Source: an uncultured Pedobacter sp. (GTDB lineage: Bacteria; Bacteroidota; Bacteroidia; Sphingobacteriales; Sphingobacteriaceae). Taken from it: 64,000 nt of DNA. Both the position numbers and the translations under genes were made by a program. The stretch lies in contig NZ_CAJYOJ010000078.1 of the NCBI RefSeq assembly GCF_913776295.1, positions 1 to 64,000 of the forward strand, read 5' to 3'. Below the pieces are notes generated by a model, which was not told the origin of the DNA, did not search any database, and saw only the letters and a list, made by a program, of their open reading frames with translations. Shown here piece by piece: positions 1,562-5,652 of the stretch; the stretch's first letter is position 1, and each line of letters begins with the position of its first letter.

Positions 1562-1593
1562 TTTGGAATATTAAAAAACAATGTCAATATTTG
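1562..1593 (+). promoter_or_regulatory. candidate promoter of the trp leader
   Basis: TTTG at 1562-1565, a 20-bp spacer, then AATATTTG at 1586-1593. This matches the Bacteroidota primary-sigma consensus TTTG-N19-21-TAnnTTTG with one mismatch in the -7 element. Transcription would begin near 1597, nine bases before the leader peptide ATG. Confidence 0.65.
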
Positions 1594-1605
1594 CTTTATA
1601 CAAAC

Positions 1606-1659
1606 ATGATCATTAAAAACTTAAATAACAATTGGTGGTGGCATAACGAAATTCGTTAG
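1606..1659 (+). CDS. trpL: trp operon leader peptide (three consecutive Trp codons)
   Basis: A 17-codon frame, MIIKNLNNNWWWHNEIR, ends in TAG at 1657-1659. Codons 10-12 (1633-1641) are TGG TGG TGG, which is extremely unusual by chance and diagnostic of a Trp-sensing leader peptide. It sits between a promoter-like sequence and a strong intrinsic terminator (1708-1736), upstream of trpD. By analogy with enterobacterial trpL, ribosome stalling at the Trp codons under tryptophan shortage would control terminator formation. The peptide itself probably has no other function. It is far too short for ordinary ORF calling. Confidence 0.85.
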   Translation: MIIKNLNNNWWWHNEIR

Positions 1660-1736
1660 GCAAGTTCTATTGTTATATATTTTTAAAATATTTTAAATAC
1701 AACGAAGAGGATTGCCCAAAAAGCAATCCTTTTTTT
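1659..1736 (+). terminator. trp attenuator: antiterminator segment and intrinsic terminator
   Basis: Terminator stem AGGATTGC (1708-1715) pairs with GCAATCCT (1723-1730) across a 7-base loop, followed by Ts to 1736. GGCAA at 1659-1663, touching the leader stop codon, can pair with TTGCC at 1712-1716, inside the terminator's 5' arm. A ribosome at the stop codon would cover GGCAA and allow termination. A ribosome stalled on the Trp codons would leave it free for antitermination. TAACG/CGTTA (1644-1648/1654-1658) could form an early pause hairpin. Confidence 0.75.
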
Positions 1737-1933: not shown

Positions 1934-2923
1934 ATGAAAAAAATATTAAACCATTTATTCGAGAACAAGAGCTTTAGCAGGGAAGAAGCCAAAAATATTT
2001 TAATTTCCATTTCTGAGGGAGCATTTAATTCTTCGCAGATTGCCGCTTTTATTACTGCTTATGCCATGCGGAATATCACGGTACAAGAGTTACAGGGCTT
2101 TAGGGACGCCATGTTGGATATGTGCGTAAAGGTTGACCTTTCCGCTTACGATCTGATCGATCTTTGTGGTACCGGTGGTGACGGGAAAGATACTTTCAAC
2201 ATTTCTACCTTGTCCTCATTTGTGGTAGCAGGGGCAGGGCATCATGTGGCTAAACATGGTAACTACGGGGTTTCATCGGGCTGCGGATCATCAAATGTGA
2301 TGGAATACCTGGGCTACAGCTTTACCAACGATGAAACTACTTTAAAGCGCAATCTGGATGCGGCAGGCATTTGCTTTTTGCATGCACCGCTTTTTAACCC
2401 CGCCATTAAAATTGTGGCACCGATCCGGAAAGAATTGGGCGTAAAAACATTTTTTAATATGCTTGGGCCAATGGTTAACCCAGGGCAACCAAATTACCAG
2501 ATGGTAGGCGTTTTTAGTTTGGAACTGGCTCGTTTATATGCTTATTTATACCAGGATACCGATAAAAATTATACCATTGTACATGCACTGGAGGGTTATG
2601 ATGAGATTTCGTTAACCTGCGATGTGAAAACCTTTTCGAATAAGGGAGAACAGATTTTAACCCTTGGCGATATGGGCTTTGAAAAAGTGGATGTCAATGG
2701 AATTAAAGGTGGTGATACCGTAGAGTCGTCAGCTAAAATATTTGTGGATGTGCTTAATGGCGAGGCGACTGATGTGCAGAACAATGTGGTATTATGCAAC
2801 TCTGCACTCGCTATCCGGACCATCAAGCCTGAACTTTCATTTGCCGATTGCTACTATGAAGCAGAAGAATCGCTGATGAGCAAAAAAGCTTTAAACAGTT
2901 TTAAACAGTTACTGGCATGCTGA
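1934..2923 (+). CDS. trpD: anthranilate phosphoribosyltransferase
   Basis: Cytoplasmic enzyme that transfers phosphoribosyl from PRPP to anthranilate, the second step of tryptophan synthesis. It has 329 residues, the usual length for a stand-alone TrpD. PRPP/anthranilate-binding motifs are visible: GTGGDGKDTFN at 79-89, KHGN at 107-110 and SSGCGS at 114-119. It is the first structural gene after the Trp-codon attenuator and overlaps trpF by 7 bases, so translation is probably coupled. No trpE or trpG lies upstream, which is unusual because the substrate-forming synthase is normally encoded with it. Confidence 0.96.
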   Translation: MKKILNHLFENKSFSREEAKNILISISEGAFNSSQIAAFITAYAMRNITVQELQGFRDAMLDMCVKVDLSAYDLIDLCGTGGDGKDTFNISTLSSFVVAGAGHHVAKHGNYGVSSGCGSSNVMEYLGYSFTNDETTLKRNLDAAGICFLHAPLFNPAIKIVAPIRKELGVKTFFNMLGPMVNPGQPNYQMVGVFSLELARLYAYLYQDTDKNYTIVHALEGYDEISLTCDVKTFSNKGEQILTLGDMGFEKVDVNGIKGGDTVESSAKIFVDVLNGEATDVQNNVVLCNSALAIRTIKPELSFADCYYEAEESLMSKKALNSFKQLLAC

Positions 2924-3549
2924 AATTAAAGGTTTGCGGCATGCGTTTAGCTGCTAACATTGCGGCCGTCGCTGAGTTACATCCGGAATATCTGGGTTTT
3001 ATCTTTTATGGTAAATCGCCCAGGTTGATCAGCGATGTTTCTGCCGAACTGATTAAATACATTCCTGCAGAAATTAAAACCGTGGGTGTTTTTGTAAATG
3101 AAGACCTTAAAAAAGTAAAAGATAAAGTAAACTTACTGAAGTTAAAAGCTGTTCAGTTACATGGCAGCGAATCGCCTGAATACTGTGAAGCATTAAAATC
3201 AAGCTTCTCATCGTTAGAGGTTATCAAAGCGTTTGGAATAGACGAAGATTTCGATTTTTCGACTTTGGAAGCTTATTTAAAGGTGACAGATTATTTCTTG
3301 TTTGATACCAAGACAAGAGCACATGGCGGATCAGGAAAAACATTTAACTGGTCTGCTTTGGACCAATATACATACACAAAACCATATTTTTTAAGTGGTG
3401 GGATTGATTTGGAACATACCACTGCGATTAAAAGCATAAACGATGATCGTTTATATGCACTAGACATCAACAGCCGGTTCGAAACTGAACCCGGGTTGAA
3501 AGATGCTGAAAAGATTAAAGAATTTATTAAAGAAATGAATACAAATTAA
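2917..3549 (+). CDS. trpF: phosphoribosylanthranilate isomerase
   Basis: Catalyses the Amadori rearrangement of phosphoribosylanthranilate, third step of tryptophan synthesis, as a TIM barrel of 210 residues. The catalytic Cys7 is in KVCGM, the acid Asp130 is in FLFDTKT, and the phosphate-binding HGGSGKTFNW is at 136-145. It starts inside the end of trpD. The gene that would normally follow trpD (trpC, indole-3-glycerol phosphate synthase) is missing, and no IGPS domain is fused to this protein. Confidence 0.96.
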   Translation: MLKLKVCGMRLAANIAAVAELHPEYLGFIFYGKSPRLISDVSAELIKYIPAEIKTVGVFVNEDLKKVKDKVNLLKLKAVQLHGSESPEYCEALKSSFSSLEVIKAFGIDEDFDFSTLEAYLKVTDYFLFDTKTRAHGGSGKTFNWSALDQYTYTKPYFLSGGIDLEHTTAIKSINDDRLYALDINSRFETEPGLKDAEKIKEFIKEMNTN

Positions 3550-3611
3550 TGTCATCCTGAGCCTGTAGAAGAAATCCTAGTAAAGAATTTCGACGAGCTC
3601 CATGTGACAGA
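3550..3611. repeat. partial GTCAT-family palindromic element between trpF and trpB
   Basis: Begins TGTCATCCTGAGCC and ends CATGTGACAG, giving weak terminal inverted repeats of the GTCAT family seen elsewhere in this window. It separates trpF from trpB without a T-run terminator. Confidence 0.5.
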
Positions 3612-3627
3612 CTAGTTGATAGATATC

Positions 3628-4809
3628 ATGAAATACAAAGTAAACGAAAAAGGATATTACGGGGATTTTGGCGGTGCGTACATCCCTGAAATGCTTTATC
3701 CGAATGTAGAAGAACTGCGTCATAATTATTTAAAGATCATTGCTGATCCTGATTTTCAGAAGGAGTTTCATCAGCTGTTAAAAGATTATGTAGGGCGTCC
3801 TTCGCCTTTATACCTGGCCAAAAGATATTCGGAACGCTACGGCGCCAATATTTTCCTAAAAAGAGAAGATTTAAACCATACCGGGGCGCATAAAATCAAC
3901 AATACCATCGGGCAGATTTTACTGGCCGAAAAACTGGGGAAAAAACGGATTATTGCCGAAACCGGTGCCGGCCAGCACGGTGTGGCTACCGCGACGGTTT
4001 GTGCATTGCGCAACCTGGAGTGTGTGATTTACATGGGTGAGGTGGATATCGAGCGACAGGCACCAAACGTGGCCCGCATGAAAATGTTGGGTGCAAAAGT
4101 AGTTCCGGCAAGTTCTGGGAGTAAAACTTTGAAAGACGCTACCAATGAGGCCATGCGCGATTGGATCAACAATCCGGTTGATACGCATTATATTATCGGT
4201 TCAGTTGTGGGGCCACATCCTTACCCTGATATGGTGGCGATTTTCCAGTCGATTATCTCCGAGGAAACCAAAAAACAGCTTCTGGAACAAACCGGAGGCG
4301 ATCAGCCTGATTATGTATTAGCCTGTGTGGGTGGTGGAAGTAACGCCATGGGCATGTTCTACCACTTCATGGATGATGAACATGTAAAACTGATCGCTGT
4401 TGAAGCAGCAGGAAAAGGTGTTTCAAGTGGATTATCAGCAGCCACTACCTATCTGGGCAATGAAGGGGTTTTGCATGGCAGTAGAAGTATTTTAATGCAG
4501 ACGCCAGACGGTCAGGTAGTAGAGCCTCATTCGGTTTCGGCTGGACTGGATTATCCAGGCATTGGTCCTCAGCATGCACATTTGTTTAAAACCGGTCGTG
4601 GGCAATATGTTTCCATTACTGACGATGAAAGTCTGGAAGCAGGTTTATTGTGTACCAAACTGGAAGGCATTATTCCTGCGATAGAAAGTGCACATGCCCT
4701 GGCTTATTTGGAAAAAATGGAATTTAAAGGTGGCGAAAATGTAGTGGTTTGCCTTTCCGGTCGCGGCGATAAGGATCTGGATACTTATATTAAATATTTT
4801 AATTTATAA
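3628..4809 (+). CDS. trpB: tryptophan synthase beta chain
   Basis: PLP enzyme that joins indole and serine to give tryptophan, working as an alpha2-beta2 complex with TrpA. The PLP lysine is Lys89 in HTGAHKIN, and the phosphate-binding [10 protein letters not shown] loop is present. I chose the ATG at 3628 ([12 protein letters not shown], 393 residues) over the TTG at 3616 because the family begins at this point. It is followed by trpA after a 75-bp palindromic spacer rather than the usual short overlap. Confidence 0.96.
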
Positions 4810-4810
4810 T

Positions 4811-4883
4811 CCCTAAATCCCCTAAAGGGGACTTATGAGGTAATTTTTCACACAATTAATAAAGCCCCTTTAGGGGTATGGGG
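4811..4883. repeat. inverted repeat filling the trpB-trpA gap
   Basis: CCCCTAAAGGGG at 4819-4830 and CCCCTTTAGGGG at 4865-4876 form inverted arms around a 34-bp centre, and each arm is itself nearly palindromic. There is no T-run, so it is unlikely to be a full terminator. It may reduce or stabilise expression between the two synthase subunits. Confidence 0.7.
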
Positions 4884-4884
4884 T

Positions 4885-5652
4885 ATGAACAGAATTAAAC
4901 AACTCTTTCAGGAGAAGAAAAATATATTATCAATTTATTACACTGCCGGTTATCCTAACACCGGCGATACCATTCAGATTGCTGAAGCACTGCAGAAATC
5001 AGGCGCAGATATACTGGAGATAGGCTTTCCATATTCAGATCCTGTTGCCGATGGACCAGTGATCCAGGCCAGTAGCAAACAGTCTTTAGATCAGGGCATG
5101 ACCCTTAAACTGCTTTTTGAGCAACTGAAAGACTTACGTAAACACGTAACTATCCCGGTTTTGTTAATGGGGTATGTAAATCCGGTTTTGCAGTTTGGCG
5201 TAGAGAATTTTTGTAAAGCTTGTGTCGAAGTTGGGGTAGACGGCTGTATTGTACCGGATTTGCCAATGGTAGAGTATGAGGAATTTTATAAAGATTGCTT
5301 TGAGAAATACAATTTAAGCAATGTGTTTTTAATTACTCCTCAAACCACTGAGGAGCGTATTCGTAAAATTGATGGTTTGACGAATGGATTTATCTATCTC
5401 TTGTCATCTTCTGCTACAACAGGTAAAAACTTAGAGGTAGGTGATACCACTGAAGCTTACTTTGGCCGCATCAAAGCCATGAACCTTAAAAACCCAACCA
5501 TGATCGGTTTCGGGATCAGCGATAAACAAACTTTCGATAAGGCATGTTCTTATGCAGATGGAGCCATTATTGGTACGGCTTTCGTTAAAGCCATTGCTGA
5601 TGGGAATTTAGAAGAAAGTATAAGCAATTTCATGAAGAAATTTAAGGATTAA
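4885..5652 (+). CDS. trpA: tryptophan synthase alpha chain
   Basis: Cleaves indole-3-glycerol phosphate to indole and glyceraldehyde 3-phosphate and channels indole to TrpB. It is a TIM barrel of 255 residues. Catalytic residues are Glu45 in EIGFPYSDP and Asp56 in VADGP, equivalent to E49 and D60 of the Salmonella enzyme. A conserved glycine-rich phosphate site lies near the C terminus (IGFGIS and GAIIGTAFV). It is the last gene of the trp cluster. Confidence 0.96.
   Translation: MNRIKQLFQEKKNILSIYYTAGYPNTGDTIQIAEALQKSGADILEIGFPYSDPVADGPVIQASSKQSLDQGMTLKLLFEQLKDLRKHVTIPVLLMGYVNPVLQFGVENFCKACVEVGVDGCIVPDLPMVEYEEFYKDCFEKYNLSNVFLITPQTTEERIRKIDGLTNGFIYLLSSSATTGKNLEVGDTTEAYFGRIKAMNLKNPTMIGFGISDKQTFDKACSYADGAIIGTAFVKAIADGNLEESISNFMKKFKD

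Follow-up and report, generated by a model that had tools for sequence, protein, structure and literature searches.

In the trp leader of E. coli, stalling of the ribosome at Trp codons favours the 2:3 helix over the 3:4 helix. The Rfam collection furthermore contains RF01692 (Bacteroid-trp), the tryptophan peptide leader RNA of Bacteroidetes. The motif table of Weinberg et al. 2010 assigns Bacteroid-trp to the Bacteroidetes and scores it 'y' as an RNA, 'y' for cis-regulation and 'n' as a switch (PMC2864571). A 2019 paper on Flavobacterium psychrophilum describes the Bacteroid-trp element as conserved before the trp operon of that species and compares it to the leader of E. coli (PMC6414381), and the text of PMC4833913 cites a comparative attenuator study of 2010 by Lopatovskaya and others. 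Searches of the open-licence literature returned no paper on an attenuator or leader peptide in Pedobacter and none on ribosome-mediated attenuation in Bacteroidetes. Nor did we come across an experimental test of an attenuator of this kind in the phylum, in a search not dedicated to it.

Here, we describe a member of this attenuator class in a stretch of 64,000 nucleotides from an uncultured Pedobacter sp. (contig NZ_CAJYOJ010000078.1), referred to as the window. Its first structural trp gene, which we take from its sequence to be trpD, is followed by three genes that, judged by their sequences, are presumably trpF, trpB and trpA (Table 1). Judged from the sequence and its comparison with relatives, it is highly probable that the trpDFBA genes are controlled by an RF01692-type ribosome-mediated transcription attenuator, in which leader and terminator very probably serve to turn on tryptophan synthesis under a shortage of the amino acid.

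Table 1. Features of the trpD leader region and of the trpE leader of the same genome; positions refer to the window unless another contig is given.
Feature	Position	Strand	Basis
Bacteroidota-type promoter (putative): TTTG 1562-1565, 20-nt spacer, AATATTTG 1586-1593	1562-1593	+	sequence; fit to the Bacteroidota-type consensus
Leader peptide MIIKNLNNNWWWHNEIR, 17 codons and TAG stop	1606-1659	+	sequence; Trp run and in-frame stop in 81/81 sequences
Hairpin 1:2 over Trp codons and stop	1613-1686	+	fold of 1598-1737, cmscan alignment, sister-clade pair counts
Regulatory codons, three tandem TGG (Trp), TGGTGGTGG	1633-1641	+	sequence
Segment 2, antiterminator 5' strand, GGCAA-g-UUCU	1659-1668	+	fold of 1659-1722
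Segment 3, AGGAUUGCC, antiterminator 3' strand, overlaps terminator 5' arm	1708-1716	+	fold; sister-clade pairing
Intrinsic terminator: stem GGATTGC 1709-1715 / GCAATCC 1723-1729, 7-nt loop, seven T 1730-1736	1709-1736	+	sequence, fold
trpD, first structural gene	1934-2923	+	ORF; matches in 142/145 genus genomes
trpF, trpB, trpA	2917-5652	+	ORFs; gene order same in L044
trpE W-x-W leader MINNIHIWLWQSNSKTDCAGCV and strong terminator, upstream of trpE	L127 220-288 and about 327-366 (G000:C32)		

A first-pass annotation of this DNA had claimed a 17-codon frame with three consecutive TGG codons between a promoter and a strong intrinsic terminator, upstream of trpD. Frame, Trp run, terminator and trpD are all found in that arrangement (Table 1), and the promoter, too, can be accounted for, as set out below. 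The gene on the other side of the leader (604-1545) is divergent, starting at 1545 on the minus strand. As to the Trp run itself, the window contains three copies of TGGTGGTGG versus 0.27 expected, and three or more copies were seen in 0 of 100 shuffles. Since the other two copies lie elsewhere in the window, the run alone is weak proof, and it is conservation that excludes chance.

Promoters of the Bacteroidota type follow the consensus TTTG...TAnnTTTG. A scan for sigma-70-type promoters returned zero sites on the plus strand; a sigma-70 promoter for the leader was accordingly dropped and the Bacteroidota-type element considered in its place. The pair of elements upstream of the leader fits this type and would put the transcription start at about 1597-1599. 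In a relaxed form, that is NANNTTTG at most 20 nt from the ATG with TTG 17-23 nt upstream, it precedes 78 of 80 leaders (the window and 79 loci from relatives) as compared to 34 of 4000 random ATGs in the flanks, a rough comparison since this control is mostly coding DNA. The two misses are L058 and L059, where the printed 20-nt frame starts within the element.

The terminator folded by itself reaches -11.8 kcal/mol, while a simple terminator scan gave only its minus-strand image. Folding of the region 1600-1740 yielded a z-score of -3.85, and none of 200 shuffles was equally good. In the RNA that would remain uncovered during stalling of a ribosome on the Trp codons, as long as the terminator is incomplete (1659-1722, the footprint being presumed), segment 2 pairs with segment 3, and an inner helix is added, giving -10.9 kcal/mol. 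The pairing of GGCAA with TTGCC, which had been proposed from the letters, thus holds as far as it goes (1659-1663 with 1712-1716, the first G being the final base of the stop codon), and only its extent was understated, the antiterminator being longer. The fold of 1672-1737 alone, mimicking a ribosome at the stop codon with a likewise presumed footprint, is the terminator (-14.6 kcal/mol). Terminator and antiterminator are mutually exclusive, as in ribosome-mediated Trp attenuators of the E. coli type. The complete, ribosome-free segment 1659-1737 also folds as the terminator (-17.0 kcal/mol); read-through would therefore need an antiterminator formed earlier. When the RNA is taken from 1598 onwards and left free of ribosomes, 1598-1722 folds into the antiterminator and 1598-1737 into hairpin 1:2 and the terminator. 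Since the antiterminator is the fold present before the terminator 3' arm, default termination, too, should depend on ribosome coverage or on kinetics.

Conservation was assessed in the best 80 of 360 TrpD relatives. Of these loci, 76 carry Pedobacter in their titles, the other four being Nubsella, Sphingobacteriaceae, Sphingobacteriales and Flavobacteriaceae records, and since L063 and L080 are two contigs from one metagenome isolate, the 80 loci represent fewer genomes. Three tandem TGG codons with an in-frame stop lie at most 900 bases from trpD in the window and in 80/80 relatives. The codon following the Trp run and the stop codon occur as CAT/TAG in 46 of the 81 leaders, CAC/TAG in 19, CAT/TGA in 15, CCT/TAG in one and CAC/TGA in none. 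This conservation in the same place bears on the notion that an ordinary intergenic terminator merely follows a random short frame by chance. The three copies of the Trp run in the window are compatible with such a coincidence, but its recurrence in every relative and, in company with RF01692, its presence ahead of trp genes in other parts of the phylum leave this notion a nearly negligible probability.

The distance between terminator and trpD varies from 3 to 394 bases in the 80 relatives. In the window, this gap contains repeated DNA (about 1830-1941), parts of which match at least 38 other genomic sites at E up to 0.001, 40 of 108 candidates having been scored. Core motifs of the repeat are present in only 15 of the 80 gaps; as a cause of the varying distance, the repeat explains little. 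An inverted repeat was sought in 1738-1940 and not found.

The leaders fall into clade A, to which the window belongs and which mostly reads WWWHNEIR, and the sister clade B, mostly reading WWWHNA.A. From the 80 usable leaders, L063 being left out because its contig begins inside the leader, we retained 35 non-redundant sequences for alignment A1, the remainder being near-duplicates, and 23 sister-clade leaders for alignment A2. In A1, 99.4% of the 315 cells of the terminator helix are paired; two of its pairs show double changes, and G-C is replaced by A-U in 11 leaders. The two clades are off by one column at segment 2 in this alignment, and the antiterminator was therefore counted on A2 only. 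Here, all seven pairs are formed in 161 of 161 cells: post-stop bases, mostly GUAACCC, face a terminator 5' arm that mostly reads GGGUUGC. One pair is compensatory, the last one being C-G in 18 and U-A in 5 of the 23 leaders, and slid registers pair in only 27-56%. The alignment across related genomes, suggested as a check by the first-pass annotation, thus speaks for its attenuation scheme, in which stalling at Trp codons leads to antitermination and arrival at the stop codon to termination: the Trp run, the terminator and the antiterminator of the sister clade are all conserved.

The sister-clade hairpin 1:2, joining the Trp/His/Asn codons to the stop region, is paired in 99.3% of 295 cells, and in A1 the 13-pair hairpin in sister-clade register is paired in only 83.5%. 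These data also bear on a second alternative, namely that the short frame encodes a functional small protein and the terminator is incidental. WWWHN is indeed kept in almost all leaders, exceptions being WWWPN in L070, WWWHS in L106 and WWWHY in L110. The N-terminal half and the C-terminus, however, differ by clade (MIIKNLNNN..EIR as compared to, e.g., MILTNGLNN..AIA). Moreover, synonymous and stop-codon bases covary as RNA pairs: one hairpin pair, C-G in 14 and U-A in 9 sister-clade leaders, is formed between the third positions of the His and stop codons in 21 of 23. The exceptions, L106 and L113, have their stop codon two codons earlier, in the loop of a hairpin that is itself retained; the RNA is thus conserved while the peptide varies. 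A small protein is thus a very improbable explanation.

For clade B, none of 1000 segment 2/3 re-dealings was as good as the leaders' own duplexes (23 rows). Clade A, which is nearly invariant, provided no covariation signal: re-dealt segments 3 paired no worse than the real partners in 995 of 1000 cases (23 rows). Over the whole trpD set, the outcome was 0/1000 (46 rows), a figure that relatedness can inflate. At least four pairs formed in 80/80 folds with the real segment 2 versus 724 of 1600 folds with a shuffled one. Counting pairs with a double change did not separate real from shuffled alignments, the real count being reached in 412 (terminator), 355 (antiterminator) and 484 (hairpin) of 500 shuffles; counting cells with a double change, it was reached in 0 of 500 shuffles for each of the three.

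A default Rfam scan of the window returned no family at its cut-off. When E values of up to 10 were admitted, 1540-1940 gave eight matches, a single one of which lies under E 0.1, namely RF01692 on 1586-1716 (43.2 bits; E 6e-4 for the 401 bases). Its score is below the gathering cut-off of 49, which is why the default scan remains silent. The alignment is full-length and uncut (model positions 1-131 of 131), including the long hairpin; the window element also shares with RF01692 the adjacent Trp codons and the place before tryptophan genes, here trpDFBA, with the score alone falling short. One may ask whether, instead of a ribosome, a Trp-binding RNA or protein, i.e. a riboswitch or a TRAP-like factor, attenuates transcription, and terminator and alternative helix would indeed suit such a device equally well. 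Yet this would leave three in-frame Trp codons, with a stop codon at segment 2, unexplained, and RF01692 as the sole match under E 0.1, with no family reaching its cut-off in the window, argues against a riboswitch in particular. We therefore consider a ligand-sensing device of either type very unlikely.

The distribution of RF01692 supports assignment of the window element to this family. Of 144 sampled genus genomes, 93 give a match with an E of 1 or less, and not one reaches the cut-off, in searches whose filters lose some weak matches. In the wider family, matches with an E of at most 0.1 were obtained for 107 of 201 sampled genomes, and nine reach the cut-off; eight of these nine loci precede trpD, and at the ninth the contig ends first. 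Examination of 14 family loci, including these nine, revealed WWW leaders in all 14, with 13 leading into trpD and one contig ending. In the phylum, 395 genomes yielded 54 matches under the same limit of E, 37 of them over the cut-off. We examined 50 of the 54 matches (L198-L247; left out were three in the genus and G454) and found leaders with adjacent Trp codons before trp genes in 48. The first trp gene varies by family: it is trpE in 38 loci, trpD in six, all from this family, trpB in four and none in two. L237 and L243, in which both the Trp leader and a trp gene are missing, were taken as chance matches. As the family relatives over the cut-off, located before trpD, form a bridge to the window element, its membership in RF01692 is very likely despite the missed cut-off. 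In view of this below-cut-off match we count the attenuator class as known already, the Pedobacter trpD leader being a member that the catalogue misses here.

The following course of events may be envisaged for the RF01692-type attenuator. RNA polymerase would start near 1598, and a ribosome would load onto the leader very close to the 5' end of the RNA. When charged tRNA-Trp is ample, the ribosome would reach the stop codon (1657-1659) and cover segment 2, so that the terminator can form and the transcript ends early, at a length of about 140 nt. When charged tRNA-Trp is scarce, it would stall on the Trp codons and open hairpin 1:2, and the freed segment 2 could pair with segment 3 before the terminator is complete, which would permit read-through into trpD.

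The same genome carries, on another contig (C32), a trpE-type gene (PF04715) and a trpC-type gene (PF00218), separated by frames that we read as a chorismate-mutase-like protein and trpG. A W-x-W leader lies upstream of trpE (Table 1). TrpE matches were obtained in 143 genus genomes, and such a leader is present in every one of the 70 trpE regions examined among them; these comprise the 30 best matches, including that of the window's genome, and 40 hand-picked ones. In some of these leaders, a 2-base difference shifts the frame past the Trp codons, with the RNA kept. In folds that stop short of the terminator 3' arm, four or more bases of the 5' arm pair with the coding part of the leader in 54 of 54 unique sequences, a count made without a shuffle control. 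They come from 69 regions, L197 having been left out for want of a recognised terminator end. Re-dealing of segments 2 and 3 gave 0/1000 for the sister group (21 rows), no covariation signal for L128-L169, with 846 of 1000 re-dealings at least as good (12 rows), and 0/1000 for the whole set (33 rows), which relatedness can inflate. In other genomes of the family, WW or WWW leaders precede trpE in 8 of 8 cases examined.

Rfam searches of ten trpE loci produced no family at its cut-off; in the trpE region of the window's genome, RF01692 is absent from the 21 weak matches and RF00513 (Trp_leader) appears at chance level (16.2 bits, E 1.3). The trpE leader resembles the trpD leader in its Trp codons, alternative helix, terminator and Bacteroidota-type promoter element. 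It differs in having W-L-W, W-Q-W or W-H-W in place of W-W-W, in the sequence of its terminator and in the position of segment 2, which is inside the coding frame. Thus, Pedobacter and its relatives probably split their trp genes into trpE-G-C and trpD-F-B-A, each preceded by a structurally different Trp attenuator. That of trpD would be the WWW leader of RF01692 type, and that of trpE a leader with W-x-W (or WW) that matched no Rfam family at cut-off here. Two such independent attenuators would set the ratio of the two pathway halves, perhaps with differing sensitivities. If true, two attenuators acting on a split pathway offer a natural comparison of how spacing of Trp codons and helix strength tune regulation.

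Taken together, our data suggest that a catalogued attenuator family extends past its catalogue, the element being present in a large genus of which no searched genome reaches the cut-off. Like RF01692, the window has a Trp-codon leader that overlaps a long hairpin, with a terminator between it and the trp genes; the RF01692 consensus helix resembles hairpin 1:2 in layout, and over-cut-off members from the same family likewise have WWW leaders before trpD. Unlike most phylum members examined, which precede trpE or trpB, the element of the window precedes trpD, and it scores 43.2 bits against the cut-off of 49, with 0/144 genus genomes over this cut-off. The model of the enterobacterial trp leader (RF00513, E. 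coli type) has no match in 1540-1940 at E up to 10, and the working that we propose for the window element is the same as that of this leader.
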